The notes under the pieces are model-generated. The model searched no databases. It was not told the DNA's origin and saw only the letters and a list, made by a program, of their open reading frames with translations. Below are positions 10,074-39,228 of a stretch of DNA of 64,000 bases, piece after piece. This stretch comes from Bradyrhizobium commune. Lineage in GTDB: Bacteria > Pseudomonadota > Alphaproteobacteria > Rhizobiales > Xanthobacteraceae. A program made the position numbers and the translations under genes. The stretch spans positions 3,162,001 to 3,226,000 of the forward strand of contig NZ_CP061379.1 of the NCBI RefSeq assembly GCF_015624505.1, in the 5' to 3' direction. Each line of letters begins with the position of its first letter. The first letter of the stretch is position 1.

Positions 10074-10086
10074 TCCCTCCCGCGGT

Positions 10087-13293: not shown

Positions 13294-13352
13294 TCTCTTG
13301 CTCCTTGCCAACTCTCGCCGCGGCGAACCGCCGCAGCTGCAAGCCCCATTCG

Positions 13353-14156: not shown

Positions 14157-14175
14157 GCGAAAATCTCGCAAATCG

Positions 14176-18192: not shown

Positions 18193-18837
18193 CTCGATTC
18201 CTCTCTGCCTTGCTCGTCGTTTGCGCTCGGACCATGTCTTACCCAGTCTAGACGCTGAGCATGAGTACAATTAAAGTGGCGACAAATCCGGGCGGGCTTT
18301 GTTAGCCGAAGAATATCTTTAGATGATGACCGCCATGGAAGTGGTAAAAAGTTCGAACTCAAGTAGAAATTATCGTACCTTATAGTTGCAAGCATTGAAG
18401 CAGCGATCCACGTGCGGGGGTGTAAGACGCGGTTCCATCGACGTGGCTACTCCAAGCTCGGCGCTATCTAAGTGGCCTACGTCACATTCACATTCGCGGC
18501 GCTGCATTAACTTGCTTCTGATGAACTTGCTTCTGATGCCGTTGAACTCCTCAAGCTTGTAAAATTGTTGACGCCGGCGTGCGCTTTGTGACTCAATTGC
18601 GTCTGTGCTTGGTTCTCTATTTTGCGAGGCCGATCGCTGACAGGCGCATCGTTCACCTCGATCAAGCAACTCAAGCAGCACTTTAGTGCCTCGTCGGAAT
18701 TTGCAACGAATGTGAAGGAGGGTTCGTCTGGACGAAATTGTGAGTCCAGCACTGCGCGTCAAAGGGCCACGCTTGGTGGCTTGTGATTTCTGGATACCAG
18801 TATGAGTTGTAACTTACTTGTTTTGTGATTGGTCGCC
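18193..18837. promoter_or_regulatory. Divergent control region between the pptH-like gene and PKS1
   Basis: About 640 bp that must hold promoters for the minus-strand pptH-PPTase pair and for the 36-kb PKS operon. It is noticeably more AT-rich than the PKS. It contains a 10-bp palindrome AGTTCGAACT at 18350-18359 and a perfect 15-bp tandem repeat at 18509-18538. No convincing gene, no KS/AT remnant and no regulator gene lies here. I could not name a reliable -35/-10 pair for PKS1. Confidence 0.5.
18509..18538. repeat. 15-bp perfect tandem repeat upstream of PKS1
   Basis: AACTTGCTTCTGATG occurs twice with no gap, 300 bp before PKS1. Direct repeats in such a position can be activator sites, but nothing else identifies a regulator. 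Confidence 0.7.
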
Positions 18838-20100: not shown

Positions 20101-23100
20101 GCTCTCCAGCGGCCGCGCGCGAAGGACGAGCCGATTGCGATCGTGGCAATGTCGTGCCGTACGCCGGGGGACGTCAAGGATGCGGAGACTTATTGGACCC
20201 TGCTTGCGGAAGGGCGGGATGCGATCGGACCGTTTCCGGCGCGCTGGGATAGCCATGCGCTCTACGATCCGGATCCGGAGACGCGGGGCAAGAGCTACGC
20301 GCGAGAAGGCGGCTTCCTGCATGATGTCGATCAATTCGACGCGGGCTTTTTCGGGATTGCGCCACGCGAAGCGGTGTCGATGGATCCGCAGCAGCGATTG
20401 GTGCTGGAGGTCGTGTGGGAGGCGCTCGAGAAGGCCGGGCTTCAGCCGGAGGCGCTGAATGAATCGAGCACGGGCGTCTATCTCGGCTCGATGCGCAGCG
20501 ATTACAGGCAAAGCGGGATCTCTCTGGAGGCGATGGATGGCTACGTAGAAACAGGCCAGGCCAGCAGTGTGCTCTCCGGTCGTGTGTCTTATGCGCTGGG
20601 TCTGCAAGGCCCGGCGATGACGATCGATACGGCGTGCTCGTCATCGCTGTCGGCGCTGCATCTCGCCTGCACGGCGCTGCGGCAGGGCGAGTGCGATCTG
20701 GCACTGGCGGGCGGTGTGCAGGTGATGAGCACGCCGTCGGTGTTTGTGGAATTCAGCCGGCTGCGCGGCGTCGCGCCCGACGGCCGAAGCAAGAGCTTCT
20801 CCGACGGCGCTGACGGCGCCGGTTGGAGTGAAGGCTGCGGCGTGCTGGTGCTGAAGCGGCAGTCGGATGCGGAGCGGGATGGCGACGAGATTCTGGCGCT
20901 GATCCGGGGCTCTGCGGTGAACCAGGATGGTCGCAGCCAGGGTCTGACGGCACCCAATGGTCCGAGCCAGCAGCGCGTGATCCGTGCCGCCCTGTCGGCG
21001 AGTGGCGTCAGCCCCGACGAGATCGACGTTGTGGAAGCGCACGGCACCGGCACAAGTCTTGGCGATCCCATCGAGGCGGGCGCCCTGGCCGCGGTGTTCG
21101 GGCCGACCCGGCGCGAAGATCGCCCGCTGTGGCTGGGCTCGTCAAAGTCGAACCTCGGGCACACCCAGGCGGCCGCCGGCGTTCTCGGCGTGATGAAGAT
21201 GGTGCTGGCGCTCCGGCACGAGGTCTTGCCGAAGACGCTGCATGCGGAGCATCCAAGCAGCCAGATCGAGTGGGACGGCAGCGGGCTGTCGCTGCTGCAG
21301 GAAGCACGGGCGTGGCCGCGGGAGCCTTCGCATGTGCGCCGTGCCGGCGTGTCCTCGTTCGGCATCAGCGGGACCAATGCGCATGTCGTGATCGAGGAGG
21401 CGCCGGCGCGGTCGTCTGCTGCTGTCAGCAGTGAGATCAACGGCACGGAAGCATCGTCGCAGGCCGTGATCCCGCTGCTGGTGTCGGGCCGTGACGAGGC
21501 CGCGCTGCGGGCGCAGGCGGGCCGGTATGGCGAATGGCTGTCGCAGCATCCGGACGCGGACTGGGGCTCCGTGGTGGCGACGGCTGCATTGCACCGGACG
21601 CATTTTGGCGCGCGGGCCGCGGTCTCGGTGCGCGATGCGGCGGAGGCGATAGAGGCGTTGCGATCGCTGGCCGAGGGCCGCCCGCATGCGGCGGTGTCGG
21701 TCGGCGAGGTGCGCGACCGCGGCCGTGTGGTGTTCGTATTCCCTGGACAGGGCAGCCAGTGGCCAACGATGGGCCGGGCCCTGCTGGCGGAGTCGGCGGT
21801 GTTTGCGCAAGCGATTGCGGCCTGTGAAACGGCGCTGTCGAGATACACGGACTGGTCGCTAACCTCTGTGCTTCGTGGCGATGAGGATCTCGAACCCTCC
21901 CTGCTGGAGCGGGTGGACGTGATCCAGCCGGCGCTGTTTGCGATGAATGTTGGCCTTGCCGCCGTGTGGCGCAGTCTCGGGCTGGTGCCCTCGGCGGTGG
22001 TGGGCCACAGCCAGGGCGAGATCGCAGCCGCCGTGGTGGCTGGCATCCTCTCGCTCGAGGACGGCGCCCGGGTCGTGGCGCTGCGCAGCCAGCTGTTGCG
22101 CCGTCTGACCGGGCACGGCGCGATGGCGGTGACGGAGCTTGCGGCCTCGCTCGTGGAAGAGCGGCTGAAAGCGGCGGAATGGTCCGGTCTGTCGGTCGCG
22201 GTGGTCAACACGCCGGGCTCGACGGTCGTCTCGGGGCCGACTGAAGCGATCGAGCGCTGGGTCGGCTGCCTTGGCCAGGAAGGGGTGTTCTGCCGGCAGG
22301 TCAATGTGGACTACGCCTCGCACAGCGCGGAGATGGACCCGATCCTGCCGGAGCTGGAACGCTTGCTGTCGGACCTTAAGCCACAGTCAGGTCAGGTGGC
22401 GATGATCTCGACGGTGACGGGATCGCGTTGTGAAGGAGTATCGCTGGACGGGGCCTATTGGTGCCGGAACCTGCGGCAGACGGTGCGGCTCGACCTTGCA
22501 CTGGCCGAGCTGATCGGTCACGGGCATGGCGTGTTCGTGGAAGCGAGCGCGCATCCGGTGCTGGCAATGCCGCTGTCTGCGGCAAGCGGCGAGCATGGCG
22601 TGGTGGCGGGATCGCTGCGCCGCGATGGCGGAGGGATGTCGGAGCTTTTGCGCAATCTCGGCACGCTGCATGTGCACGGCGTTGGCGTCGACTGGAAGGC
22701 CGTTGGCAATCTCGCCAAGCAGCCTGTTGCCTCGCTTCCGACCTACGCATTCCAGCGGCAGCGTTACTGGCTTGAGGCGGAGAAGGCGGGCGGTGATGTC
22801 GCGACGATGGGCCTGTCGGAAGCCGCGCATCCGCTGCTGGGAGCTGCGACGCCGCTGGCGGAGAGCGACGGCTTCCTGCTGACGGGGCGGCTGTCGTTGT
22901 CGGACGCGGGCTGGCTGGGCGACCACAAGGTGTTCGGGACGGTGCTGCTGCCGGGGACCGGGCTGTTGGAGCTCGGCTTTGCGGCGGCGCGTGCGGTGGG
23001 CGCCACGAGCGTGTCGCAGCTGACGCTGCTGGCGCCGCTGGTGCTGCCGGCGGAGGGCGGGGTGCGGCTTCAGGTCCAGGTCGATGGTGCCGAGGCGGGC

Positions 23101-26100: not shown

Positions 26101-29100
26101 ACCAACAGTCTGCGGTCGCGGCTGGCCTCGCTTGCGGGCGAAGCGGAGCGGCTGGCGGCGCTGGTGGAGCTGGCGCAGGAGGAGATCGCGGCGGTGCTGG
26201 CGCTGCCGGGCGCCGCCTCGGTGCCGGCGGACCAGCCGCTGAAGGAGCTCGGGCTCGACTCGCTGATGGCGGTCGAGCTGCGCAACCGCCTGTCGGGCCG
26301 GGTCGGCACCAAGCTGCCGGCCACGATCGCCTTCGACTATCCGACCGCACGGACGATGGCCCGCCTCCTGCTCGAGAAGCTCGAGCTCGGTCGTGCGCCT
26401 GCTCGACAGGAGCCGCGGCGGGCGATCAGTGCATCGGCGACGTCGGAGTCGATCGCGATTGTCGGGATGAGCTGCCGCACACCTGGAGGTCCCGCGAGCC
26501 CGGAGAGCTATTGGGCCTTGCTGGAGCGCGGTGGCGACGGCGTGGGCCCGCTGCCGGGCCGCTGGAGCCGTGATCTGCTGCGGCGCCTGGACGAGATCAC
26601 GGGCGGACTGTCGCAGGAGGGTGGCTTTATCGACTCCGTCGAGGACTTCGACGCCGGCTTCTTCGGCATCTCGCCGCGCGAGGCGGTGGAGATGGATCCG
26701 CAGCAGCGCCTGATCCTGGAGGCGGTGTGGGAGGCGCTGGAGCGCGCGGGGATCCGACCCGAGGGTCTGGGAGAGAGCCGGACCGGCGTCTATCTGGGCT
26801 CGATGGCTGGCGACTACGGCACGCGCTCGCTCGAGGCGGCGACGATGTGGACGTCGACGGGCACGCTGTCGAGCGTGCTGGCGGGCCGTGTCTCCTATGT
26901 GCTGGGGCTCGAGGGTCCGGCGATGACGGTGGATACGGCCTGCTCGTCGTCGCTGACGGCGCTGCACCTGGCGAGCACGGCGCTGCGTCAGGGTGAGTGC
27001 GACCTCGCACTGGCGGGCGGCGTGACCGTGATGTCGACGCCCTCGACGTTTGTGGCACTGGGTCCTGACAACGGGATGGCGCCGGATGGTCGCTGCAAGG
27101 CATTCTCGGCAACCGCCAATGGTGCGGGCTGGAGCGAGGGCTGCGGTGTGCTGGTGCTCAAGCGCCAGTCGGATGCGGAACGGGATGGCGACGAGATTCT
27201 GGCGCTGATCCGGGGCTCTGCGGTGAACCAGGACGGCCGCAGCCAGGGTCTGACGGCGCCCAACGGCCCGAGCCAGCAGCGCGTGATCCGTGCGGCGCTG
27301 TCGGCGAGCGGGGTGAGCCCCGACGAGATCGACGTGGTCGAGGCGCACGGCACCGGAACCAGCCTTGGCGATCCCATCGAGGCCGGCGCCCTGGCCGCGG
27401 TGTTCGGGCCGACGCGGCGCGAAGACCGTCCGCTGTGGCTGGGCTCGTCGAAGTCGAACCTCGGCCACACCCAGGCTGCGGCCGGCGTCCTCGGCGTGAT
27501 GAAGATGGTGCTGGCGCTCCGGCACGAGGTCTTGCCGAAGACGCTGCATGCGGAGCATCCAAGCAGCCAGATCGAGTGGGACGGCAGCGGGCTGTCGCTG
27601 CTGCAGCAAGCACGGGCGTGGCCGCGCGAGCCTTCGCATGTGCGTCGTGCCGGCGTGTCCTCGTTCGGCATCAGCGGGACCAATGCGCATGTGGTGATCG
27701 AGGAGGCGCCGGCGCGCGCCACAGCTCGTGGCACGGATACAAAAAATACAGACGATGCGTCATCGCCGTTGATCCCGCTGCTGGTGTCGGGCCGTGACGA
27801 GGCCGCGCTGCGGGCGCAGGCGGGCCGGTATGGCGAATGGCTGTCGCAGCATCCGGACGTGGATTGGTCTTCCGTGGTGGCGACGGCTGCATTGCACCGG
27901 ACGCAGTTCGCCGTACGTGCCGCGGTGTCAGTACGCGATGCGGCGGAGGCGATAGAGGCGTTGCGATCGCTGGCCGAGGGTCGCCCGCATGCGGCGGTGT
28001 CGGTTGGCGAGGCCAGGGGCGAGGCCGGCAAGCTGGCGTTCCTGTTCACGGGCCAGGGCGCGCAGCAGATCGGCATGGGCCGGGCGCTGCTGGAGACGTG
28101 CCCGGCGTTCCGCGCCACGTTCGAGGAGGCCTGCGGCCATTTTGACGAACTGCTGGATCTGCCGCTGCGCAGCGTCATGTTTGCAGAGGAAGGCTCGGAG
28201 GCGGCGTCGAAGCTCGACGAGACCGCCTACGCACAGCCGGCGCTGTTTGCGGTCGAGGTGGCGCTGTTCCGCCAGCTGGAGCAGTGGGGTATCGCGCCCG
28301 ACATCCTGCTCGGCCACTCCATCGGCGAGCTCAGTGCCGCACATGTTGCGGGCGTGTGGTCGCTCAGGGATGCCTGCCGTGTGGTGGCCGCGCGCGGCCG
28401 CCTGATGCAGGCGCAACCCGCCGGCGGCGCCATGGTGGCGATCGAGGCAGGTGAAGCGGAGGTGCTGCCACTGCTTTCTGAAGGCGTCGAGATCGCCGGG
28501 TTGAACGGGCCGCGTTCGACGGTGATCTCCGGCGATGAAGCCGCCGTGCTGGCGCTGGCGGAAGCGTTCAAAAGCAAGGGTCGCAGGACCTCTCGTCTGC
28601 AGGTGAGCCACGCGTTCCATTCCAGGCGAATGGAGCCGATGCTGGAGGCGTTCGGCCAGGTGCTGGCGTCAGTCTCCTTCGGCACGCCGCGGCTGCCGGT
28701 CGTGAGCAACGTGACGGGCCGTCTGGCGACCAAGGAGGAGCTGTGCAGCGCGGCGTACTGGGTGCGTCAGGTGCGCAGTCCGGTGCGGTTCCTCGACGGC
28801 GTGCATGTGCTGGAAGCCGACGGCGTGCGGGCAAGTCTCGAGCTTGGTCCGGACGGCATCCTGACCGGACTAGCAGCGGGATGCTTGTCGGAAGGCTCAC
28901 CGATGCAGGTGATTGCCGCACAACGCCGCGGCCGCGATGGCGGCGAGGCGCTGCTGGCGGCACTCGGCACGCTTCACGTTCACGGCCTTGGCGTCGACTG
29001 GGCGAAGGCGCTTGGATCGAGCGCAAAGACATCGGTTGCCTCGCTTCCGACCTACGCATTCCAGCGGCAGCGTTACTGGCTGGAGGCGGAGAAGGCGGGC

Positions 29101-32100
29101 GGTGATGTCGCGACGATGGGCCTGTCGGAAGCCGCGCATCCGCTGCTGGGAGCTGCGACGCCGCTGGCGGAGAGCGACGGCTTCCTGCTGACGGGGCGGC
29201 TGTCGTTGTCGGACGCGGGCTGGCTCGGCGACCACAAGGTGTTCGGGACGGTGCTGCTGCCGGGGACCGGGCTGTTGGAGCTCGGCTTTGCGGCGGCGCG
29301 TGCGGTGGGCGCCACGAGCGTGTCGCAGCTGACGCTGCTGGCGCCGCTGGTGCTGCCGGCGGAGGGCGGGGTGCGGCTTCAGGTCCAGGTCGATGGTGCC
29401 GAGGCGGGCGCCGGCGGCCGGGCCTTGAGCATCTACAGCCGTGCGGAAGATGCGGCCGAGGGCGGATCGTGGACACTGCATGCGCAGGGCATGCTGGGCG
29501 AGGCGGCAGCGGAAGACGCGGTGCAGGACGCTGCAGCGGAGAGCGGGCTTGAAGAGAGCGGGCTCGAGGTGTGGCCGCCCGTCGGTGGCGAGCCGATCGA
29601 TTTGAGCGGTCATTATGCGCGGATGCAGGCCCGCGGCTACGGCTACGGGCCGCTGTTCCAGGGGCTGGTTGAGGCCTGGCGTGTTGGGGACGCCGTAGTT
29701 GGGCGGGCGGTGCTGCCCGATGCGCTGTCGGACTCGGCGGAGAGTTACGGGCTGCATCCGGCGCTGCTGGATGCGGCGCTGCATGTGCTGAGCTTTGATC
29801 CTGTTGCGGGCAGCGATCTCGATGGCGGAGCGGATGCGCCGCTGCTGCTGCCGTTCGAATGGTCCGAGGTGTCGCTGGCCGCGACGGGGGCGCGTGAGCT
29901 GCGGGTGCGCGCCTCGGTCGAGCGCGGTGGCGAGGGCGAGGCGCTGGCGCATCTGCAGCTTGCGGATGGTCACGGCCGTGTTGTGGCCCATGTCGGGGGC
30001 TTGCGGCTGAAGCAGGCAAGCGAGGCACAGATCCGTGAGGCTTCGCGCAGCGAGGCGCAGCATCTGTATCGGCTGGAGTGGCGTGCGGTGGCGCTGGGCG
30101 AGGCCAGCTCCGAAGCCCCGCTGATGGTGGGCGGCGACGGCAGGCTGGCGGCGGCTCTCGGGCTTGATCATGCCGAGAGCATTGCAGCTGTTGTTGCGCG
30201 GCTCGACGCGGGTGCATCAGTCCCGGCTCAGATCGTGTTCGACCATTTGTCCGATCCGGCTGAACCTGATGGCCCCGTGCTTGCGGCAACGCATGCGACG
30301 GCGGAACGCGGGTTGGCCGAGCTTCAGGGGCTTCTTGGCGAGGCGCGCCTGAACGAGACGGATGTCGCGTGGCTGACGCGGGGCGCGGTGGCGACGGGTC
30401 CGGATGAAGGTGCCGGCGGACTGACGCGGGCGCCACTGTGGGGCCTGGTGCGCAGCGCGCGGGCGGAACATCCGGACCGGCGGTTGCAGCTCGTTGACAT
30501 CGATGCGGTCCTCGCGGATGCGTCGTTGCTGGCGAAGCTGACGTCGACGACGTCCGAGCCCGAGCTGGCGCTGCGGCATGGTGCGGTGCTGGCGCCGCGG
30601 CTGCTGCGGGCTGGAGCGGGCGGGAGTGTCCTTCAGGCGCCGGCAACAGCGCCGGATTACCGCGTTGCGGTCACCGCTGCCGGCCGGCTCGACGGCGTCA
30701 GCCTGGTGGCGGCAGGCGAGCTGTCGGAGCCGTTGGCATCAGGTGAGGTCCGGGTCGGCGTGCGTGCGGCCGGCATGAACTTCCGCGACGTGCTGATCAC
30801 GCTGGGACAGATTGCATCCCCCGGCATCGGGTTCGAGTTTGCCGGCGTGGTGGAGGCGGTCGGCGCGGAGGTGACGTCGGTTGCGGTCGGCGACCGGGTG
30901 TTCGGCTGTGGGCGCGGCTGCTTTGGCACCCGCGCGGTGACGCCGGCGCAGCAGCTTGCGACGATCCCTGAAGGGATGTCGTTCGCGGCGGCGGCGACGA
31001 TCCCGCTGGCCTATCTGACGGCGCTGTATGCGCTGCAGGAGCTTGGGCATATCAGGTCCGGAGACCGCGTCCTGGTGCACGCAGCAGCCGGTGGCGTCGG
31101 GATGGCCGCGGTGCAGCTGTGCCGGCATTTTGGCGCGGAGGTGTACGGCACGGCGAGCCCCGCCAAATGGCCGGTGCTGGAAGGAATCGGACTGGACGGA
31201 CGGCATATCGCCAACTCCCGCGACCTCAGCTTCGAGACGCAGTTTTTGTCGGCGACGAACGGCGAGGGTGTCGACATCGTGCTCAACGCGCTGACGGGCG
31301 AGTTCGTCGATGCCTCGCTGCGGCTGCTGCCGCGGGGCGGCCGCTTCCTGGAGATGGGGATCGCGGACGGGCGTGACGCGGATGCGATCGCGGCAAAATA
31401 TCCTGGCGTGAGCTACCACGCGTTCGTGCTGCCTTCGGAGCGGATGCCGGCGCTGTTGCAGCAGCTGATGGGCCTGTTCGCGGCAGGCGTGCTAAAACCG
31501 TTGCCGTACGTGGCCTACGATGTGCGGCAGATGCCGGCGGCGCTGCGGCAGATGGCGCAGGGCCGCCACATCGGCAAGCAGGTGGTGCAGCTGCCGCGGC
31601 GTCTTGAAGCGGACGGCACCGTGCTGATCACGGGCGGTGCGGGCGAGCTCGGCCGTGAGGTCGCGCGGCATCTGGTTGCGGATCACGGTGTGCGTCATCT
31701 CTTGCTGACGTCGCGCCGCGGCATGGCCGCGCCGGGTGCATCTGAACTTATTACCGAGCTACAGGCGCTGGGCGCGCAGACGGTCGAGCTGGTGAGCTGC
31801 GACGTCGCGAACCGTGATGCTGTCAGTGCCATATTGAACACCATCGCGCCGGAACGTCCGCTGACGGGGGTGTTCCATCTGGCGGCGACGCTGGACGACG
31901 GCATCGTGCCGGCGCTGACCGTGGAGCGTCTGGAGCGGGTCTTGCGGCCCAAGCTCGATGGCGCCTGGCATCTGCACGAGCTGACGGCGGACCAGGATCT
32001 TGCGGCGTTCGTGCTGTTCTCGTCGGTTGCAGCGCTCGGCAGTCCGGGCCAGGCGAACTACGCGGCGGCGAACGTGTTTTTGGACGCGCTTGCGGCGGAG

Positions 32101-35100
32101 CGTCGGCATCGCGGCCTTGCCGGGCAGAGCCTGCTGTGGGGCCTGTGGGAGCAGCGCGGGGTCGGCATGACGGCGCATCTGGGCCGGGCCGAGCTGTTGC
32201 GGATGCGCCGGCAGGGCGTGCAGGCGCTGTCGCTGGAGCTCGGGCTCAAGCTTCTGGATGCGGCACAGGCGCAGCCCGAGGCGATGCTGGTCCCGATCCA
32301 TCTGGATGTCGGCGCGATGCAGCGCCAGTTCGGCGAGGAGGTGCCGGCGCTGTATCGCGGCCTGGTACGCACTGGCTTGCGGCGGGCCTCAGTGGCATCG
32401 AGCGGCGACACCAACAGTCTGCGGTCGCGGCTGGCCTCGCTTGCGGGCGAAGCGGAGCGGCTGGCGGCGCTGGTGGAGCTGGCGCAGGAGGAGATCGCGG
32501 CGGTGCTGGCGCTGCCGGGCGCCGCCTCGGTGCCGGCGGACCAGCCGCTGAAGGAGCTCGGGCTCGACTCGCTGATGGCGGTCGAGCTGCGCAACCGCCT
32601 GTCGGGCCGGGTCGGCACCAAGCTGCCGGCCACGATCGCCTTCGACTATCCGACCGCACGGACGATGGCCCGCCTCCTGCTCGAGAAGCTCGAGCTCGGT
32701 CGTGCGCCTGCTCGACAGGAGCCGCGGCGGGCGATCAGTGCATCGGCGACGTCGGAGTCGATCGCGATTGTCGGGATGAGCTGCCGCACACCTGGAGGTC
32801 CCGCGAGCCCGGAGAGCTATTGGGCCTTGCTGGAGCGCGGTGGCGACGGCGTGGGCCCGCTGCCGGGCCGCTGGAGCCGTGATCTGCTGCGGCGCCTGGA
32901 CGAGATCACGGGCGGACTGTCGCAGGAGGGTGGCTTTATCGACTCCGTCGAGGACTTCGACGCCGGCTTCTTCGGCATCTCGCCGCGCGAGGCGGTGGAG
33001 ATGGATCCGCAGCAGCGCCTGATCCTGGAGGCGGTGTGGGAGGCGCTGGAGCGCGCGGGGATCCGACCCGAGGGTCTGGGAGAGAGCCGGACCGGCGTCT
33101 ATCTGGGCTCGATGGCTGGCGACTACGGCACGCGCTCGCTCGAGGCGGCGACGATGTGGACGTCGACGGGCACGCTGTCGAGCGTGCTGGCGGGCCGTGT
33201 CTCCTATGTGCTGGGGCTCGAGGGTCCGGCGATGACGGTGGATACGGCCTGCTCGTCGTCGCTGACGGCGCTGCACCTGGCGAGCACGGCGCTGCGTCAG
33301 GGTGAGTGCGACCTCGCACTGGCGGGCGGCGTGACCGTGATGTCGACGCCCTCGACGTTTGTGGCACTGGGTCCTGACAACGGGATGGCGCCGGATGGTC
33401 GCTGCAAGGCATTCTCGGCAACCGCCAATGGTGCGGGCTGGAGCGAGGGCTGCGGTGTGCTGGTGCTCAAGCGCCAGTCGGATGCGGAACGGGATGGCGA
33501 CGAGATTCTGGCGCTGATCCGGGGCTCTGCGGTGAACCAGGACGGCCGCAGCCAGGGTCTGACGGCGCCCAACGGCCCGAGCCAGCAGCGCGTGATCCGT
33601 GCGGCGCTGTCGGCGAGCGGGGTGAGCCCCGACGAGATCGACGTGGTCGAGGCGCACGGCACCGGAACCAGCCTTGGCGATCCCATCGAGGCCGGCGCCC
33701 TGGCCGCGGTGTTCGGGCCGACGCGGCGCGAAGACCGTCCGCTGTGGCTGGGCTCGTCGAAGTCGAACCTCGGCCACACCCAGGCTGCGGCCGGCGTCCT
33801 CGGCGTGATGAAGATGGTGCTGGCGCTCCGGCACGAGGTCTTGCCGAAGACGCTGCATGCGGAGCATCCAAGCAGCCAGATCGAGTGGGACGGCAGCGGG
33901 CTGTCGCTGCTGCAGCAAGCACGGGCGTGGCCGCGCGAGCCTTCGCATGTGCGTCGTGCCGGCGTGTCCTCGTTCGGCATCAGCGGGACCAATGCGCATG
34001 TGGTGATCGAGGAGGCGCCGGCGCGCGCCACAGCTCGTGGCACGGATACAAAAAATACAGACGATGCGTCATCGCCGTTGATCCCGCTGCTGGTGTCGGG
34101 CCGTGACGAGGCCGCGCTGCGGGCGCAGGCGGGCCGGTATGGCGAATGGCTGTCGCAGCATCCGGACGTGGATTGGTCTTCCGTGGTGGCGACGGCTGCA
34201 TTGCACCGGACGCAGTTCGCCGTACGTGCCGCGGTGTCAGTACGCGATGCGGCGGAGGCGATAGAGGCGTTGCGATCGCTGGCCGAGGGTCGCCCGCATG
34301 CGGCGGTGTCGGTTGGCGAGGCCAGGGGCGAGGCCGGCAAGCTGGCGTTCCTGTTCACGGGCCAGGGCGCGCAGCAGATCGGCATGGGCCGGGCGCTGCT
34401 GGAGACGTGCCCGGCGTTCCGCGCCACGTTCGAGGAGGCCTGCGGCCATTTTGACGAACTGCTGGATCTGCCGCTGCGCAGCGTCATGTTTGCAGAGGAA
34501 GGCTCGGAGGCGGCGTCGAAGCTCGACGAGACCGCCTACGCACAGCCGGCGCTGTTTGCGGTCGAGGTGGCGCTGTTCCGCCAGCTGGAGCAGTGGGGTA
34601 TCGCGCCCGACATCCTGCTCGGCCACTCCATCGGCGAGCTCAGTGCCGCACATGTTGCGGGCGTGTGGTCGCTCAGGGATGCCTGCCGTGTGGTGGCCGC
34701 GCGCGGCCGCCTGATGCAGGCGCAACCCGCCGGCGGCGCCATGGTGGCGATCGAGGCAGGTGAAGCGGAGGTGCTGCCACTGCTTTCTGAAGGCGTCGAG
34801 ATCGCCGGGTTGAACGGGCCGCGTTCGACGGTGATCTCCGGCGATGAAGCCGCCGTGCTGGCGCTGGCGGAAGCGTTCAAAAGCAAGGGTCGCAGGACCT
34901 CTCGTCTGCAGGTGAGCCACGCGTTCCATTCCAGGCGAATGGAGCCGATGCTGGAGGCGTTCGGCCAGGTGCTGGCGTCAGTCTCCTTCGGCACGCCGCG
35001 GCTGCCGGTCGTGAGCAACGTGACGGGCCGTCTGGCGACCAAGGAGGAGCTGTGCAGCGCGGCGTACTGGGTGCGTCAGGTGCGCAGTCCGGTGCGGTTC

Positions 35101-38100
35101 CTCGACGGCGTGCATGTGCTGGAAGCCGACGGCGTGCGGGCAAGTCTCGAGCTTGGTCCGGACGGCATCCTGACCGGACTAGCAGCGGGATGCTTGTCGG
35201 AAGGCTCACCGATGCAGGTGATTGCCGCACAACGCCGCGGCCGCGATGGCGGCGAGGCGCTGCTGGCGGCACTCGGCACGCTTCACGTTCACGGCCTTGG
35301 CGTCGACTGGGCGAAGGCGCTTGGATCGAGCGCAAAGACATCGGTTGCCTCGCTTCCGACCTACGCATTCCAGCGGCAGCGTTACTGGCTGGAGGCGGAG
35401 AAGGCGGGCGGTGATGTCGCGACGATGGGCCTGTCGGAAGCCGCGCATCCGCTGCTGGGAGCTGCGACGCCGCTGGCGGAGAGCGACGGCTTCCTGCTGA
35501 CGGGGCGGCTGTCGTTGTCGGACGCGGGCTGGCTCGGCGACCACAAGGTGTTCGGGACGGTGCTGCTGCCGGGGACCGGGCTGTTGGAGCTCGGCTTTGC
35601 GGCGGCGCGTGCGGTGGGCGCCACGAGCGTGTCGCAGCTGACGCTGCTGGCGCCGCTGGTGCTGCCGGCGGAGGGCGGGGTGCGGCTTCAGGTCCAGGTC
35701 GATGGTGCCGAGGCGGGCGCCGGCGGCCGGGCCTTGAGCATCTACAGCCGTGCGGAAGATGCGGCCGAGGGCGGATCGTGGACACTGCATGCGCAGGGCA
35801 TGCTGGGCGAGGCGGCAGCGGAAGACGCGGTGCAGGACGCTGCAGCGGAGAGCGGGCTTGAAGAGAGCGGGCTCGAGGTGTGGCCGCCCGTCGGTGGCGA
35901 GCCGATCGATTTGAGCGGTCATTATGCGCGGATGCAGGCCCGCGGCTACGGCTACGGGCCGCTGTTCCAGGGGCTGGTTGAGGCCTGGCGTGTTGGGGAC
36001 GCCGTAGTTGGGCGGGCGGTGCTGCCCGATGCGCTGTCGGACTCGGCGGAGAGTTACGGGCTGCATCCGGCGCTGCTGGATGCGGCGCTGCATGTGCTGA
36101 GCTTTGATCCTGTTGCGGGCAGCGATCTCGATGGCGGAGCGGATGCGCCGCTGCTGCTGCCGTTCGAATGGTCCGAGGTGTCGCTGGCCGCGACGGGGGC
36201 GCGTGAGCTGCGGGTGCGCGCCTCGGTCGAGCGCGGTGGCGAGGGCGAGGCGCTGGCGCATCTGCAGCTTGCGGATGGTCACGGCCGTGTTGTGGCCCAT
36301 GTCGGGGGCTTGCGGCTGAAGCAGGCAAGCGAGGCACAGATCCGTGAGGCTTCGCGCAGCGAGGCGCAGCATCTGTATCGGCTGGAGTGGCGTGCGGTGG
36401 CGCTGGGCGAGGCCAGCTCCGAAGCCCCGCTGATGGTGGGCGGCGACGGCAGGCTGGCGGCGGCTCTCGGGCTTGATCATGCCGAGAGCATTGCAGCTGT
36501 TGTTGCGCGGCTCGACGCGGGTGCATCAGTCCCGGCTCAGATCGTGTTCGACCATTTGTCCGATCCGGCTGAACCTGATGGCCCCGTGCTTGCGGCAACG
36601 CATGCGACGGCGGAACGCGGGTTGGCCGAGCTTCAGGGGCTTCTTGGCGAGGCGCGCCTGAACGAGACGGATGTCGCGTGGCTGACGCGGGGCGCGGTGG
36701 CGACGGGTCCGGATGAAGGTGCCGGCGGACTGACGCGGGCGCCACTGTGGGGCCTGGTGCGCAGCGCGCGGGCGGAACATCCGGACCGGCGGTTGCAGCT
36801 CGTTGACATCGATGCGGTCCTCGCGGATGCGTCGTTGCTGGCGAAGCTGACGTCGACGACGTCCGAGCCCGAGCTGGCGCTGCGGCATGGTGCGGTGCTG
36901 GCGCCGCGGCTGCTGCGGGCTGGAGCGGGCGGGAGTGTCCTTCAGGCGCCGGCAACAGCGCCGGATTACCGCGTTGCGGTCACCGCTGCCGGCCGGCTCG
37001 ACGGCGTCAGCCTGGTGGCGGCAGGCGAGCTGTCGGAGCCGTTGGCATCAGGTGAGGTCCGGGTCGGCGTGCGTGCGGCCGGCATGAACTTCCGCGACGT
37101 GCTGATCACGCTGGGACAGATTGCATCCCCCGGCATCGGGTTCGAGTTTGCCGGCGTGGTGGAGGCGGTCGGCGCGGAGGTGACGTCGGTTGCGGTCGGC
37201 GACCGGGTGTTCGGCTGTGGGCGCGGCTGCTTTGGCACCCGCGCGGTGACGCCGGCGCAGCAGCTTGCGACGATCCCTGAAGGGATGTCGTTCGCGGCGG
37301 CGGCGACGATCCCGCTGGCCTATCTGACGGCGCTGTATGCGCTGCAGGAGCTTGGGCATATCAGGTCCGGAGACCGCGTCCTGGTGCACGCAGCAGCCGG
37401 TGGCGTCGGGATGGCCGCGGTGCAGCTGTGCCGGCATTTTGGCGCGGAGGTGTACGGCACGGCGAGCCCCGCCAAATGGCCGGTGCTGGAAGGAATCGGA
37501 CTGGACGGACGGCATATCGCCAACTCCCGCGACCTCAGCTTCGAGACGCAGTTTTTGTCGGCGACGAACGGCGAGGGTGTCGACATCGTGCTCAACGCGC
37601 TGACGGGCGAGTTCGTCGATGCCTCGCTGCGGCTGCTGCCGCGGGGCGGCCGCTTCCTGGAGATGGGGATCGCGGACGGGCGTGACGCGGATGCGATCGC
37701 GGCAAAATATCCTGGCGTGAGCTACCACGCGTTCGTGCTGCCTTCGGAGCGGATGCCGGCGCTGTTGCAGCAGCTGATGGGCCTGTTCGCGGCAGGCGTG
37801 CTAAAACCGTTGCCGTACGTGGCCTACGATGTGCGGCAGATGCCGGCGGCGCTGCGGCAGATGGCGCAGGGCCGCCACATCGGCAAGCAGGTGGTGCAGC
37901 TGCCGCGGCGTCTTGAAGCGGACGGCACCGTGCTGATCACGGGCGGTGCGGGCGAGCTCGGCCGTGAGGTCGCGCGGCATCTGGTTGCGGATCACGGTGT
38001 GCGTCATCTCTTGCTGACGTCGCGCCGCGGCATGGCCGCGCCGGGTGCATCTGAACTTATTACCGAGCTACAGGCGCTGGGCGCGCAGACGGTCGAGCTG

Positions 38101-39228
38101 GTGAGCTGCGACGTCGCGAACCGTGATGCTGTCAGTGCCATATTGAACACCATCGCGCCGGAACGTCCGCTGACGGGGGTGTTCCATCTGGCGGCGACGC
38201 TGGACGACGGCATCGTGCCGGCGCTGACCGTGGAGCGTCTGGAGCGGGTCTTGCGGCCCAAGCTCGATGGCGCCTGGCATCTGCACGAGCTGACGGCGGA
38301 CCAGGATCTTGCGGCGTTCGTGCTGTTCTCGTCGGTTGCAGCGCTCGGCAGTCCGGGCCAGGCGAACTACGCGGCGGCGAACGTGTTTTTGGACGCGCTT
38401 GCGGCGGAGCGTCGGCATCGCGGCCTTGCCGGGCAGAGCCTGCTGTGGGGCCTGTGGGAGCAGCGCGGGGTCGGCATGACGGCGCATCTGGGCCGGGCCG
38501 AGCTGTTGCGGATGCGCCGGCAGGGCGTGCAGGCGCTGTCGCTGGAGCTCGGGCTCAAGCTTCTGGATGCGGCACAGGCGCAGCCCGAGGCGATGCTGGT
38601 CCCGATCCATCTGGATGTCGGCGCGATGCAGCGCCAGTTCGGCGAGGAGGTGCCGGCGCTGTATCGCGGCCTGGTACGCACTGGCTTGCGGCGGGCCTCA
38701 GTGGCATCGAGCGGCGACACCAACAGTCTGCGGTCGCGGCTGGCCTCGCTCGCGGGCGATGCGGAGCGGCTGGCGGCGCTGGTGGAGCTGGCGCAGGAGG
38801 AGATCGCGGCGGTGCTGGCGCTGCCCGGGGCCGCCTCGGTGCCGGCGGACCAGCCGCTGAAGGAGCTCGGGCTCGACTCGCTGATGGCGGTCGAGCTGCG
38901 CAACCGCCTGTCGGGCCGGGTCGGCACCAAGCTGCCGGCCACGATCGCCTTCGACTATCCGACCGCACGGACGATGGCCCGCCTCCTGCTCGAGAAGCTC
39001 GAGCTCGACAACGTCAAGTCAGGTCCGTCGGTCTGGGGTGATGAGCAAATTCGCCGGAAGCTACGAGAAATTTCTATCGAAGCGCTACGCGAGTCGGGCC
39101 TTCTTGAGCGTCTCATGATGCAGCCGAATGCCACCTCTTCCCGGCGTGCAGGCGACGATGAATTGTCCGCGCATATCGATGAGGCCGAAACCGAGTCTTT
39201 GTTGAATATCGCGTCTGAATTGCTCTGA
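18838..39228 (+). CDS. PKS1: giant modular type I polyketide synthase, loading didomain plus three fully reducing modules
   Basis: A ~6,796-residue cis-AT PKS. Order: DH-like, ACP, then three KS-AT-DH-ER-KR-ACP modules and a C-terminal docking tail of ~75 residues. All three KS have [10 protein letters not shown]1 carries GHSQG and YASH (methylmalonyl-type); AT2 and AT3 carry GHSIG and HAFH (malonyl-type). DH1-3 have [10 protein letters not shown] and DAALH; ERs have AGMNFRDVL and HAAAGGVGMAA; KRs have the Ser-Tyr-Asn triad and a TLDD (B-type) motif; ACPs have LGLDSL. The frame opens with TTG at 18829 just after a TGA; ATG at 18838 is the likelier start. No ribosome site is obvious. DNA of modules 1-3 repeats with an exact 6,309-bp period. 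PKS2 starts 5 bp downstream. Confidence 0.95.
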   Translation: MQHLSSTYDLLTGSALISYRLSLSEHPWLAHHKVFDRVASAGTGLLELALAAGLALDSPRVLELTLVAPLMISSASGSRVKIQVQAADAQGRRTFFLHSLDEASRAPSGGWILHATGVLAEAEAADQDEAAVPLLDAWPPEGTTQLDISNLGARLSAQGLDCGPALQGLAGAWRLGDTIYAEVALPAGTISGAAEFGIHPALIDAALHVFAAEGFAADDEGGLPLPFSWSDVTLHTHGVRELKVRFDLGTSESSEQRSASMVLWNGKGPPVATVGRLTLRRAAGEPSLEDQVEQAAAPELLHMRESPKPRRVAAGGAAVSALRHRLSELPENERLGSLVVLVQEGIASILALPGASSVPADAPLKGLGLDSLMAVELRNRLSVRVGIKLPTTLAFDYPTPEAIASLLLREIFPDLHAIASTALQRPRAKDEPIAIVAMSCRTPGDVKDAETYWTLLAEGRDAIGPFPARWDSHALYDPDPETRGKSYAREGGFLHDVDQFDAGFFGIAPREAVSMDPQQRLVLEVVWEALEKAGLQPEALNESSTGVYLGSMRSDYRQSGISLEAMDGYVETGQASSVLSGRVSYALGLQGPAMTIDTACSSSLSALHLACTALRQGECDLALAGGVQVMSTPSVFVEFSRLRGVAPDGRSKSFSDGADGAGWSEGCGVLVLKRQSDAERDGDEILALIRGSAVNQDGRSQGLTAPNGPSQQRVIRAALSASGVSPDEIDVVEAHGTGTSLGDPIEAGALAAVFGPTRREDRPLWLGSSKSNLGHTQAAAGVLGVMKMVLALRHEVLPKTLHAEHPSSQIEWDGSGLSLLQEARAWPREPSHVRRAGVSSFGISGTNAHVVIEEAPARSSAAVSSEINGTEASSQAVIPLLVSGRDEAALRAQAGRYGEWLSQHPDADWGSVVATAALHRTHFGARAAVSVRDAAEAIEALRSLAEGRPHAAVSVGEVRDRGRVVFVFPGQGSQWPTMGRALLAESAVFAQAIAACETALSRYTDWSLTSVLRGDEDLEPSLLERVDVIQPALFAMNVGLAAVWRSLGLVPSAVVGHSQGEIAAAVVAGILSLEDGARVVALRSQLLRRLTGHGAMAVTELAASLVEERLKAAEWSGLSVAVVNTPGSTVVSGPTEAIERWVGCLGQEGVFCRQVNVDYASHSAEMDPILPELERLLSDLKPQSGQVAMISTVTGSRCEGVSLDGAYWCRNLRQTVRLDLALAELIGHGHGVFVEASAHPVLAMPLSAASGEHGVVAGSLRRDGGGMSELLRNLGTLHVHGVGVDWKAVGNLAKQPVASLPTYAFQRQRYWLEAEKAGGDVATMGLSEAAHPLLGAATPLAESDGFLLTGRLSLSDAGWLGDHKVFGTVLLPGTGLLELGFAAARAVGATSVSQLTLLAPLVLPAEGGVRLQVQVDGAEAGAGGRALSIYSRAEDAAEGGSWTLHAQGMLGEAAAEDAVQDAAAESGLEESGLEVWPPVGGEPIDLSGHYARMQARGYGYGPLFQGLVEAWRVGDAVVGRAVLPDALSDSAESYGLHPALLDAALHVLSFDPVAGSDLDGGADAPLLLPFEWSEVSLAATGARELRVRASVERGGEGEALAHLQLADGHGRVVAHVGGLRLKQASEAQIREASRSEAQHLYRLEWRAVALGEASSEAPLMVGGDGRLAAALGLDHAESIAAVVARLDAGASVPAQIVFDHLSDPAEPDGPVLAATHATAERGLAELQGLLGEARLNETDVAWLTRGAVATGPDEGAGGLTRAPLWGLVRSARAEHPDRRLQLVDIDAVLADASLLAKLTSTTSEPELALRHGAVLAPRLLRAGAGGSVLQAPATAPDYRVAVTAAGRLDGVSLVAAGELSEPLASGEVRVGVRAAGMNFRDVLITLGQIASPGIGFEFAGVVEAVGAEVTSVAVGDRVFGCGRGCFGTRAVTPAQQLATIPEGMSFAAAATIPLAYLTALYALQELGHIRSGDRVLVHAAAGGVGMAAVQLCRHFGAEVYGTASPAKWPVLEGIGLDGRHIANSRDLSFETQFLSATNGEGVDIVLNALTGEFVDASLRLLPRGGRFLEMGIADGRDADAIAAKYPGVSYHAFVLPSERMPALLQQLMGLFAAGVLKPLPYVAYDVRQMPAALRQMAQGRHIGKQVVQLPRRLEADGTVLITGGAGELGREVARHLVADHGVRHLLLTSRRGMAAPGASELITELQALGAQTVELVSCDVANRDAVSAILNTIAPERPLTGVFHLAATLDDGIVPALTVERLERVLRPKLDGAWHLHELTADQDLAAFVLFSSVAALGSPGQANYAAANVFLDALAAERRHRGLAGQSLLWGLWEQRGVGMTAHLGRAELLRMRRQGVQALSLELGLKLLDAAQAQPEAMLVPIHLDVGAMQRQFGEEVPALYRGLVRTGLRRASVASSGDTNSLRSRLASLAGEAERLAALVELAQEEIAAVLALPGAASVPADQPLKELGLDSLMAVELRNRLSGRVGTKLPATIAFDYPTARTMARLLLEKLELGRAPARQEPRRAISASATSESIAIVGMSCRTPGGPASPESYWALLERGGDGVGPLPGRWSRDLLRRLDEITGGLSQEGGFIDSVEDFDAGFFGISPREAVEMDPQQRLILEAVWEALERAGIRPEGLGESRTGVYLGSMAGDYGTRSLEAATMWTSTGTLSSVLAGRVSYVLGLEGPAMTVDTACSSSLTALHLASTALRQGECDLALAGGVTVMSTPSTFVALGPDNGMAPDGRCKAFSATANGAGWSEGCGVLVLKRQSDAERDGDEILALIRGSAVNQDGRSQGLTAPNGPSQQRVIRAALSASGVSPDEIDVVEAHGTGTSLGDPIEAGALAAVFGPTRREDRPLWLGSSKSNLGHTQAAAGVLGVMKMVLALRHEVLPKTLHAEHPSSQIEWDGSGLSLLQQARAWPREPSHVRRAGVSSFGISGTNAHVVIEEAPARATARGTDTKNTDDASSPLIPLLVSGRDEAALRAQAGRYGEWLSQHPDVDWSSVVATAALHRTQFAVRAAVSVRDAAEAIEALRSLAEGRPHAAVSVGEARGEAGKLAFLFTGQGAQQIGMGRALLETCPAFRATFEEACGHFDELLDLPLRSVMFAEEGSEAASKLDETAYAQPALFAVEVALFRQLEQWGIAPDILLGHSIGELSAAHVAGVWSLRDACRVVAARGRLMQAQPAGGAMVAIEAGEAEVLPLLSEGVEIAGLNGPRSTVISGDEAAVLALAEAFKSKGRRTSRLQVSHAFHSRRMEPMLEAFGQVLASVSFGTPRLPVVSNVTGRLATKEELCSAAYWVRQVRSPVRFLDGVHVLEADGVRASLELGPDGILTGLAAGCLSEGSPMQVIAAQRRGRDGGEALLAALGTLHVHGLGVDWAKALGSSAKTSVASLPTYAFQRQRYWLEAEKAGGDVATMGLSEAAHPLLGAATPLAESDGFLLTGRLSLSDAGWLGDHKVFGTVLLPGTGLLELGFAAARAVGATSVSQLTLLAPLVLPAEGGVRLQVQVDGAEAGAGGRALSIYSRAEDAAEGGSWTLHAQGMLGEAAAEDAVQDAAAESGLEESGLEVWPPVGGEPIDLSGHYARMQARGYGYGPLFQGLVEAWRVGDAVVGRAVLPDALSDSAESYGLHPALLDAALHVLSFDPVAGSDLDGGADAPLLLPFEWSEVSLAATGARELRVRASVERGGEGEALAHLQLADGHGRVVAHVGGLRLKQASEAQIREASRSEAQHLYRLEWRAVALGEASSEAPLMVGGDGRLAAALGLDHAESIAAVVARLDAGASVPAQIVFDHLSDPAEPDGPVLAATHATAERGLAELQGLLGEARLNETDVAWLTRGAVATGPDEGAGGLTRAPLWGLVRSARAEHPDRRLQLVDIDAVLADASLLAKLTSTTSEPELALRHGAVLAPRLLRAGAGGSVLQAPATAPDYRVAVTAAGRLDGVSLVAAGELSEPLASGEVRVGVRAAGMNFRDVLITLGQIASPGIGFEFAGVVEAVGAEVTSVAVGDRVFGCGRGCFGTRAVTPAQQLATIPEGMSFAAAATIPLAYLTALYALQELGHIRSGDRVLVHAAAGGVGMAAVQLCRHFGAEVYGTASPAKWPVLEGIGLDGRHIANSRDLSFETQFLSATNGEGVDIVLNALTGEFVDASLRLLPRGGRFLEMGIADGRDADAIAAKYPGVSYHAFVLPSERMPALLQQLMGLFAAGVLKPLPYVAYDVRQMPAALRQMAQGRHIGKQVVQLPRRLEADGTVLITGGAGELGREVARHLVADHGVRHLLLTSRRGMAAPGASELITELQALGAQTVELVSCDVANRDAVSAILNTIAPERPLTGVFHLAATLDDGIVPALTVERLERVLRPKLDGAWHLHELTADQDLAAFVLFSSVAALGSPGQANYAAANVFLDALAAERRHRGLAGQSLLWGLWEQRGVGMTAHLGRAELLRMRRQGVQALSLELGLKLLDAAQAQPEAMLVPIHLDVGAMQRQFGEEVPALYRGLVRTGLRRASVASSGDTNSLRSRLASLAGEAERLAALVELAQEEIAAVLALPGAASVPADQPLKELGLDSLMAVELRNRLSGRVGTKLPATIAFDYPTARTMARLLLEKLELGRAPARQEPRRAISASATSESIAIVGMSCRTPGGPASPESYWALLERGGDGVGPLPGRWSRDLLRRLDEITGGLSQEGGFIDSVEDFDAGFFGISPREAVEMDPQQRLILEAVWEALERAGIRPEGLGESRTGVYLGSMAGDYGTRSLEAATMWTSTGTLSSVLAGRVSYVLGLEGPAMTVDTACSSSLTALHLASTALRQGECDLALAGGVTVMSTPSTFVALGPDNGMAPDGRCKAFSATANGAGWSEGCGVLVLKRQSDAERDGDEILALIRGSAVNQDGRSQGLTAPNGPSQQRVIRAALSASGVSPDEIDVVEAHGTGTSLGDPIEAGALAAVFGPTRREDRPLWLGSSKSNLGHTQAAAGVLGVMKMVLALRHEVLPKTLHAEHPSSQIEWDGSGLSLLQQARAWPREPSHVRRAGVSSFGISGTNAHVVIEEAPARATARGTDTKNTDDASSPLIPLLVSGRDEAALRAQAGRYGEWLSQHPDVDWSSVVATAALHRTQFAVRAAVSVRDAAEAIEALRSLAEGRPHAAVSVGEARGEAGKLAFLFTGQGAQQIGMGRALLETCPAFRATFEEACGHFDELLDLPLRSVMFAEEGSEAASKLDETAYAQPALFAVEVALFRQLEQWGIAPDILLGHSIGELSAAHVAGVWSLRDACRVVAARGRLMQAQPAGGAMVAIEAGEAEVLPLLSEGVEIAGLNGPRSTVISGDEAAVLALAEAFKSKGRRTSRLQVSHAFHSRRMEPMLEAFGQVLASVSFGTPRLPVVSNVTGRLATKEELCSAAYWVRQVRSPVRFLDGVHVLEADGVRASLELGPDGILTGLAAGCLSEGSPMQVIAAQRRGRDGGEALLAALGTLHVHGLGVDWAKALGSSAKTSVASLPTYAFQRQRYWLEAEKAGGDVATMGLSEAAHPLLGAATPLAESDGFLLTGRLSLSDAGWLGDHKVFGTVLLPGTGLLELGFAAARAVGATSVSQLTLLAPLVLPAEGGVRLQVQVDGAEAGAGGRALSIYSRAEDAAEGGSWTLHAQGMLGEAAAEDAVQDAAAESGLEESGLEVWPPVGGEPIDLSGHYARMQARGYGYGPLFQGLVEAWRVGDAVVGRAVLPDALSDSAESYGLHPALLDAALHVLSFDPVAGSDLDGGADAPLLLPFEWSEVSLAATGARELRVRASVERGGEGEALAHLQLADGHGRVVAHVGGLRLKQASEAQIREASRSEAQHLYRLEWRAVALGEASSEAPLMVGGDGRLAAALGLDHAESIAAVVARLDAGASVPAQIVFDHLSDPAEPDGPVLAATHATAERGLAELQGLLGEARLNETDVAWLTRGAVATGPDEGAGGLTRAPLWGLVRSARAEHPDRRLQLVDIDAVLADASLLAKLTSTTSEPELALRHGAVLAPRLLRAGAGGSVLQAPATAPDYRVAVTAAGRLDGVSLVAAGELSEPLASGEVRVGVRAAGMNFRDVLITLGQIASPGIGFEFAGVVEAVGAEVTSVAVGDRVFGCGRGCFGTRAVTPAQQLATIPEGMSFAAAATIPLAYLTALYALQELGHIRSGDRVLVHAAAGGVGMAAVQLCRHFGAEVYGTASPAKWPVLEGIGLDGRHIANSRDLSFETQFLSATNGEGVDIVLNALTGEFVDASLRLLPRGGRFLEMGIADGRDADAIAAKYPGVSYHAFVLPSERMPALLQQLMGLFAAGVLKPLPYVAYDVRQMPAALRQMAQGRHIGKQVVQLPRRLEADGTVLITGGAGELGREVARHLVADHGVRHLLLTSRRGMAAPGASELITELQALGAQTVELVSCDVANRDAVSAILNTIAPERPLTGVFHLAATLDDGIVPALTVERLERVLRPKLDGAWHLHELTADQDLAAFVLFSSVAALGSPGQANYAAANVFLDALAAERRHRGLAGQSLLWGLWEQRGVGMTAHLGRAELLRMRRQGVQALSLELGLKLLDAAQAQPEAMLVPIHLDVGAMQRQFGEEVPALYRGLVRTGLRRASVASSGDTNSLRSRLASLAGDAERLAALVELAQEEIAAVLALPGAASVPADQPLKELGLDSLMAVELRNRLSGRVGTKLPATIAFDYPTARTMARLLLEKLELDNVKSGPSVWGDEQIRRKLREISIEALRESGLLERLMMQPNATSSRRAGDDELSAHIDEAETESLLNIASELL
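20125..26375 (+). other. PKS1 module 1: KS-AT(methylmalonyl)-DH-ER-KR-ACP
   Basis: KS active-site Cys at 20635; AT nucleophile Ser at 22009 (GHSQG) with YASH at 22312-22323, the methylmalonyl-CoA signature; DH His at 22924; ER about 24345-25285; KR about 25310-25860 with LDD; ACP Ser at 26260. A structural KR subdomain lies between DH and ER. It should install one fully reduced, alpha-methyl-branched C2 unit. Its DH-ER-KR-ACP part is DNA-identical to modules 2 and 3, whereas its KS and AT are different and closely resemble those of module 6. Confidence 0.88.
22918..38750 (+). repeat. Exact 6,309-bp tandem repeat within PKS1, about 2.5 copies
   Basis: Base n equals base n+6,309 throughout 22918-32441, as far as can be checked by reading aligned lines and by comparing the frames on both strands, which translate identically. 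The first mismatches flanking the block are 22917 (g versus c) on the left and 38751 (c versus t) on the right. The unit runs from DH through ER, KR, ACP, KS and AT to the next DH, so the repeat is out of phase with module boundaries: three DH-ER-KR units but two KS-AT units. Confidence 0.93.
26446..32684 (+). other. PKS1 module 2: KS-AT(malonyl)-DH-ER-KR-ACP
   Basis: KS Cys at 26941; AT Ser at 28318 (GHSIG) with HAFH at 28609-28620, the malonyl-CoA signature; complete DH, ER and B-type KR; ACP Ser at 32569. It should add a fully reduced, unbranched C2 unit. Every base from the KS to the ACP appears identical to module 3, so the two cannot be told apart from sequence alone. Confidence 0.9.
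32755..38993 (+). other. PKS1 module 3: KS-AT(malonyl)-DH-ER-KR-ACP, exact copy of module 2
   Basis: KS Cys at 33250, AT Ser at 34627, ACP Ser at 38878: each is exactly 6,309 bp beyond its module 2 counterpart. The copy remains identical until 38751, just before the ACP, where the first substitutions appear. It should add a second fully reduced malonate-derived unit. The C-terminal docking tail follows at about 39005-39225. Confidence 0.9.

Follow-up and report, generated by a model that had tools for sequence, protein, structure and literature searches.

A tandem module repeat in a Bradyrhizobium polyketide synthase gene suggests concerted evolution by intragenic recombination

A polyketide synthase (PKS) gene of Bradyrhizobium commune carries a module repeated with a period of exactly 6,309 bp. 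From the pattern of the few differences between the copies, and from domain trees that include orthologous clusters of the same genus, we consider it probable that intragenic homologous recombination maintains the likeness among the modules of this cis-AT type I modular PKS, a case of concerted evolution. All coordinates refer to the window, the whole stretch of 64,000 nt that was analysed.

The assembly line is encoded by two genes spaced 5 bp apart:

18829–39228, forward strand: PKS gene 1, 6,799 aa, with a loading region DH0-ACP0 followed by three KS-AT-DH-ER-KR-ACP modules (open reading frame, domains and motifs)
18883–20034, forward strand: loading DH0 (18883–19734) and ACP0 (19801–20034) (domain search and motifs)
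20128–26389, forward strand: module 1, with KS, AT carrying GHSQGE and YASH, DH, ER, KR and ACP (domains and motifs)
26390–32698, forward strand: module 2, KS-AT(malonyl-type)-DH-ER-KR-ACP, recombinant type LB-RA (see below)
32699–39007, forward strand: module 3, type LB-RB, the same as module 2 but for 4 bp in the ACP end
39234–55520, forward strand: PKS gene 2, 5,428 aa, with M4 (KS-AT-KR-ACP), M5 (KS-AT-DH-KR-ACP), M6 (KS-AT(methylmalonyl-type)-DH-KR-ACP) and TE

The genes are co-linear and contain six KS, six AT, seven ACP and one TE motif, as in a cis-AT type I modular PKS. The KS, AT, DH, ER, KR and ACP motifs that were sought are present in all three modules of gene 1, and by its motifs the PKS would be functional. 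GHSQGE with YASH occurs in the ATs of M1 and M6, and GHSIGE with HAFH in the other four; we take these pairs to mark methylmalonyl and malonyl specificity, respectively. A domain search found no KS or AT upstream of DH0-ACP0. In all five genomes in which DH0 is readable (this one and four relatives, G211 not being readable), HxxxDxxxx(A/V) replaces HxxxGxxxxP and, because of this altered motif, DH0 is probably non-dehydrating. A DH-ACP start of the assembly line with such a motif hints at a loading function that is non-catalytic or novel. The 7.62-Mb genome is a single contig with 17 ketosynthase-family matches, 6 of them in the PKS cluster and the other 11 in open frames of 400–510 aa.

Set against itself with a lag of 6,309 bp, the window agrees at every base over 9,524 bp (22918–32441), which bears out the exact periodicity over 22918–38750 of the original prediction. 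Further exact runs at this lag lie at 22726–22772, 22774–22916, 32452–32516 and 32521–32698, and the same self-comparison at lags of 6,308 and 6,310 gave no run of 40 bp or more. The block and the sites that border it are:

22918–38750, forward strand: perfectly periodic block, period 6,309 bp, 2.51 periods (lag self-match)
22773–22917, forward strand: left diagnostic sites 22773 and 22917, reading T,G in module 1 (LA) and G,C in modules 2 and 3 (LB)
38751–38829, forward strand: right diagnostic sites 38751, 38760, 38826 and 38829, reading C,T,C,G in module 3 (RB) and T,A,G,C in modules 1 and 2 (RA)

The block comprises two full copies (22918–29226 and 29227–35535) and a partial one (35536–38750). 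The unit is in frame (6,309 = 3 × 2,103) within the single 6,799-aa reading frame, and a self-match of this kind cannot arise by chance. Modules 2 and 3 had been described as identical, which holds within the periodic block; over the whole modules (26390–32698 and 32699–39007), 4 of 6,309 bp differ, at 32442, 32451, 32517 and 32520, all near the ACP end. Module 1 does share DH-ER-KR-ACP with the other two, its half-module (22726–26389) having 2 differences from module 2 (22773 and 22917) and 6 from module 3. Read across modules 1, 2 and 3, the six variable sites give the series LA-RA, LB-RA, LB-RB.

Synonymous divergence between the copies, proposed earlier as a check, comes to 3 of 1,269 fourfold-degenerate sites between modules 2 and 3 and to 1 of 778 between modules 1 and 2 (DH to ACP). 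As a yardstick, the orthologous M5 modules of the window and strain LTSP849 differ at 187 of 731 such sites (KS, DH, SD, KR and ACP), or ~26%. Zero differences in 9,524 bp have a 95% upper bound of ~3 per 10,000 sites (rule of three) and, set against the ~26% of M5, mean that the event that formed the repeat is recent on the scale of that divergence.

At the protein level, gene 1 contains an exact internal repeat of 3,241 aa. The longest in 119 other long PKS proteins is 685 aa, and one of the 119 has a repeat of at least 500 aa; these proteins are the top of one similarity search (the best 120 of 785 hits, own copy excluded), not a survey. In that search, made with residues 1–900 of gene 1, the sole high-identity match listed is the gene's own copy (P0006), the next best listed having 69% identity, and there are no strain-level copy-number variants among the best 120 of 785 hits. 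Elsewhere in the genome, copies of the module were sought by scoring 40 of 365 candidate stretches; of 13 matches, just two lie outside the cluster, both short and weak (41 and 56 bp).

Among 264 other genomes of the genus, five contain an orthologous cluster: G157 (LTSP849), G253, G119, G211 and G246 (BR13661). Their loading regions are 75–80% identical in amino acids to that of the window, and the domain order is the same wherever their contigs are readable. The earlier warning that short-read assembly could miscount copies here proved apt, as the cluster is broken inside the PKS in all five relatives, into two to six contigs each. The smallest of their PKS contigs examined has 3,033 bp; 2.2-kb contigs of two strains are represented by proteins that were found separately.

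Two of these relatives allow fully reducing modules to be counted. In LTSP849, contig ends share exactly 1,221 bp between M1 and M6 (AT), 517 bp of KS, and 2,506–2,533 bp of ER-KR-ACP among three contigs; this exact sharing reflects collapsed repeats of a draft assembly, in which small differences may be hidden. The LTSP849 ER differs from that of the window by 11%. The protein P0143, from a separate 2,242-bp contig, opens with the terminal 407 aa of C16 and closes with the initial 22 aa of the ER-KR-ACP repeat. The overlaps permit the path C16, P0143 contig, repeat, C36, C15 or C38, repeat, C36, the other of these two, repeat, C43, C54, the order of C15 and C38 not being readable from them. 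These overlaps and P0143 give LTSP849 three fully reducing modules or more. Between C15 and C38, 341 of 3,147 aligned positions differ (10.8%, KS-AT-DH), the first two 200-bp blocks being identical; in this strain ER-KR-ACP looks homogenised, and most of KS-AT-DH of the C15 and C38 modules does not. In BR13661, P0192 is a KS-AT piece of 726 aa encoded on a 2,177-bp contig, with 94% amino-acid identity to the fully reducing module of C61 and 90% to M4 of C61, and is taken as a putative further malonyl-type module. If its missing reducing domains match the others, BR13661 would, with M1, have at least three fully reducing modules. The counts rest on LTSP849 and BR13661, G119, G211 and G253 not being countable.

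Some further features of the related sequences deserve mention. On contig C18 of G211 (L050), at about 18644 in window orientation, the AT of M1 lies in two pieces in different frames, through a frameshift or an assembly error. P0127, labelled 'Frankia sp. RB7', matches the product of G253 C65 (L043) at 100%; as G253 belongs to the same genus as the window, the public name looks wrong. Fragments that carry the label Steroidobacteraceae MAG (P0123, P0129, P0132, P0138, P0145 and P0149) are 60–86% alike in amino acids in the AT-DH region, and stem either from misbinned contigs or from related clusters beyond the genus.

Domain trees place most ATs by genome. Among the five genomes with at least two copies of the malonyl-type AT (G253 has one full-length copy), these form one clade per genome in the window (100/100), LTSP849 (91/95), BR13661 (94/94) and G211 (100/100); in G119, M2 and M4 group together (100/100) and M5 stands apart. 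In all four genomes that can be compared, the methylmalonyl-type AT of M1 pairs with the M6 one of the same genome, the LTSP849 pair resting on a collapsed repeat. Approximately unbiased (AU) tests reject clades by position for the ATs of M1 (p 3e-95, with one identical pair unconstrained), M4 (4e-44) and M5 (0.001). KS5, KS6, KR4, DH0 and ACP0 cluster by position with support, which argues that the cluster was inherited as a unit; KS1 also does so, with weak support (59/65). KS2–KS4 group by genome only in the window and LTSP849, and the DH copies of LTSP849 fall outside their own genome's clade. Duplicate rows of the same LTSP849 repeat were removed from the trees, which do not include the protein pieces P0143 and P0192, and bootstrap values for the KR and ACP trees had yet to converge.

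At fourfold sites, the median difference within genomes, as against that between genomes at the same position, is 0.096 versus 0.308 for methylmalonyl-type ATs, 0.0 versus 0.289 for ER (one pair), 0.211 versus 0.321 for AT and 0.277 versus 0.343 for DH. It is 0.337 versus 0.353 for SD, 0.294 versus 0.300 for ACP, 0.352 versus 0.320 for KS and 0.399 versus 0.324 for KR, the KS and KR medians taking in the distant KS5 and KR4. Pairs with fewer than 30 fourfold sites were left out, as were loading domains within a genome. By these medians there is no overall homogenisation of KS and KR and hardly any of ACP and SD. The KRs of the fully reducing modules are, within a genome, 100% alike in the window, 100% in LTSP849 (collapsed) and 95.1% in G119. 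Homogenisation is limited to certain domains and modules, and it extends past the periodic block into gene 2:

40926–41948, forward strand: AT of M4, 96.5% nucleotide identity to the AT of M2/M3 (closest other genome, 86.5%)
45579–46598, forward strand: AT of M5, 94.9% nucleotide identity to the AT of M2/M3 (closest other genome, 86.0%)
50889–53459, forward strand: AT-DH of M6, homogenised with M1 (AT 98.3%, DH about 95% nucleotide identity)

For domain identities, copies under half length and pairs of fewer than 150 bases were left out, which drops the M5 AT of G253 and the methylmalonyl-type M6 AT of G211; contig matches shorter than 250 bp and those beyond 40 per contig were likewise left out.

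Long stretches of a PKS that resemble one another at more than 80%, together with raised GC and TA skew, are features of GRINS (PMC10394414, PMC9899208), which PMC10394414 describes as rare in proteobacteria, and this PKS shows both features. Here the third-position GC skew is 0.26 in PKS gene 1 and 0.23 in gene 2, and the TA skew 0.36 and 0.25; the KR of M4 and the TE have low third-position skew, unlike the rest of the PKS. The seven high-identity regions have moderate mean skews (GC 0.12–0.20, TA 0.10–0.19). One of the seven passes the 0.15 rule of PMC9899208 as a whole region (52339–53658), as do nine sub-stretches by sliding mean, and none of the seven passes the 25% wording of PMC10394414, so that in both respects the case differs from GRINS as these sources present them. 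Skew alone was also weighed as the cause of homogenisation and found no support as a sufficient one: ACP0 and DH0 are skewed yet group by position, and skew therefore does not track homogenisation cleanly.

We infer that the repeat was left by an exchange of the DH-ER-KR-ACP tract of module 1 with the tract of a following module. In an unequal crossover, the M1 tract (LA-RA) on one chromosome would have recombined with the tract of the next module (LB-RB) on the sister, at a point within 3,215 bp of identical tracts. The product would have KS-AT doubled and a module 2 that is an LB-RA recombinant, and modules 2 and 3 would share KS-AT. The recent unequal crossover or gene conversion of the original prediction gains support from the LA-RA, LB-RA, LB-RB series itself, from a block free of differences where an orthologous pair has ~26% at fourfold sites, and from the grouping of malonyl-type ATs by genome in five genomes, save M5 of G119. 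The simplest reading of the six variable sites alone would be a fresh gain, in which a single crossover, confined to this lineage, gave a two-module ancestor its third module; we think this unlikely, however, as malonyl-type fully reducing modules come in two different versions both in LTSP849 (C15 and C38) and in BR13661 (P0192 and C61). Given three or more fully reducing modules in two relatives, the most probable history is that one module was lost and regained by duplication, or was converted by its neighbour, rather than gained for the first time. Gene conversion alone, of module 2 by 3 (and of 1 by 2) with the module number constant throughout, would accord with the at least three fully reducing modules of both other countable genomes and with ATs that are clearly alike in modules far from any tandem unit. 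It would require a tract of ~6.3 kb or several tracts, whereas a single crossover explains the recombinant order of the six sites, and we hold it as a tentative second possibility.

The same series of sites would equally be given by an assembly loop walked twice. The real gene would then carry two fully reducing modules or, with another miscount of the loop, at least four, and the assemblies of all five relatives do break in the same genes. Against this, the single contig suggests that long reads were used, and LTSP849, by its overlap graph, and BR13661, by the extra KS-AT of P0192, independently point to at least three fully reducing modules. The presence of at least three in both countable relatives speaks for three as the true and older number, and a mis-walked repeat strikes us as quite improbable. 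Short-read polishing homogenises repeats that exceed the read length, and the block is far longer than any short read. Consensus polishing that turned near-identical modules identical would nevertheless have had to spare both the 1.7% by which the ATs of M1 and M6 differ and the six coherent differences at the block edges, and could hardly have erased a distance like that between the LTSP849 modules (10.8% in KS-AT-DH); we regard such an origin as very unlikely indeed.

The genes around the PKS bear on its predicted starter and product:

13353–14249, reverse strand: class IV aminotransferase, possibly PabC-like (aminodeoxychorismate lyase) (PF01063)
14176–16377, reverse strand: PabAB fusion (glutamine amidotransferase and aminodeoxychorismate synthase I) (TIGR00553, 360 bits, cut-off 328)
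16700–17419, reverse strand: 4'-phosphopantetheinyl transferase (PF17837, PF01648)
17368–18270, reverse strand: calcineurin-like phosphoesterase (PF00149)
56586–58280, reverse strand: ABC1/UbiB-like kinase (PF03109)
58565–60208, forward strand: ABC1/UbiB-like kinase (PF03109)
60307–62001, forward strand: benzoate-CoA ligase family protein, candidate starter-activating enzyme (TIGR02262, 712 bits, cut-off 375)
62086–62904, reverse strand: thioesterase-domain protein, possible type II thioesterase (PF00975)

Genes for p-aminobenzoate (PABA) synthesis and aryl activation are thus present with the PKS, the PabC-like enzyme matching NCBIfam lyase and transaminase models, every one under its cut-off. 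Of 98 genomes sampled in the genus, this one among them, 3 carry PabAB at 60% identity or more, and the PabC-like/PabAB DNA and the PKS start lie on one contig in all five relatives. Since PabAB and the benzoate-CoA ligase adjoin the PKS, the pab-like stretch is conserved and PabAB is rare in the genus, p-aminobenzoate is the predicted PKS starter. For the same rarity, a reading of PabAB as a housekeeping folate gene was set aside; it may still have a folate role in this strain. The genome's sole other chorismate-binding match is a 724-aa frame, presumably TrpE-like. In the predicted pathway, PabAB and the PabC-like enzyme would make p-aminobenzoate, which the benzoate-CoA ligase would activate for loading on ACP0. 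The chain would then be extended with methylmalonyl, four malonyl and one methylmalonyl unit, in that order, with full reduction in rounds 1–3, and be released by the TE. For the acid without further modification, co-linearity would give C21H31NO3 ([M+H]+ 346.238).

A TPR-CHAT protein (10087–13311) also adjoins the cluster, and the stretch 9076–16836 that includes it is kept in LTSP849 at 86% DNA identity. The two ABC1 kinases, the CoA ligase and the thioesterase form a block (55908–63142) that lies downstream of the PKS in the window. In four relatives (G253 C32, G119 C11, G211 C18 and G246 C50) it adjoins the PabC-like/PabAB block (window 13350–16478) upstream of the PKS, and this different placement indicates a rearrangement of the cluster.

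Each copy of the repeated module would add one C2H4 unit. That a change in copy number would add or remove one elongation round follows from the predicted architecture, and variation in chain length is possible. No such variation was observed, the two countable relatives likewise having three or more fully reducing modules. A live copy-number switch would go further, with cells or strains carrying one, two or three 6,309-bp units, p-aminobenzoate-primed polyketides spaced by C2H4, and the three-module form under selection for its product; we find this extension doubtful.

Concerted evolution of PKSs has already been described, and the Bradyrhizobium case is an extreme and very clean example in an alphaproteobacterium. 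That PKS modules multiply and are overwritten by recombination is set out, in the literature considered here, with cases from Streptomyces, other actinomycetes and mycobacteria. In the mycolactone mls locus (PMC2569948), same-function domains are near-identical in DNA and group by strain, which the authors ascribe to recombination and domain replacement, and parts of modules have 100% identity over 2,682 nt. There, same-function domains are 98.7–100% alike on mycobacterial plasmids, whereas here only some domains are homogenised, on the chromosome, and a single module recurs with just 4 of its 6,309 bp changed. Medema et al. 2014 (PMC4256081) report ATs that branch by cluster and KSs that do not, with ansamycin and polyene examples. 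The ATs described here likewise group by cluster, except the M5 AT of G119, and the macrolide-type pattern, in which KS domains also group by cluster, was not found, KS5 and KS6 grouping by position. Those examples are other clusters; here the comparison is of six orthologs of one alphaproteobacterial genus, with an exact 9.5-kb tract. In rapamycin and tylosin PKSs rearranged in the laboratory (PMC5663706), modules are gained or lost through recombination between homologous ones, with a change in ring size; recombination was induced there by an integrated replicon in Streptomyces, whereas here it is natural and undated. Searches of the open-licence PMC literature found no paper on identical PKS modules with gene conversion or tandem module duplication, none, by title or abstract start, on a Bradyrhizobium PKS cluster, and nothing on point, by title, on unequal crossing in bacterial PKSs or on Bradyrhizobium aminobenzoate.

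Draft genomes miss genes of this kind, as the breaks inside the PKS of all five relatives illustrate. The present gene offers an exact in-frame module repeat that can be compared with five orthologous clusters of the same alphaproteobacterial genus, and it opens the questions of how frequently modules turn over, why module number may remain constant despite homogenisation, and whether product length varies within a strain.
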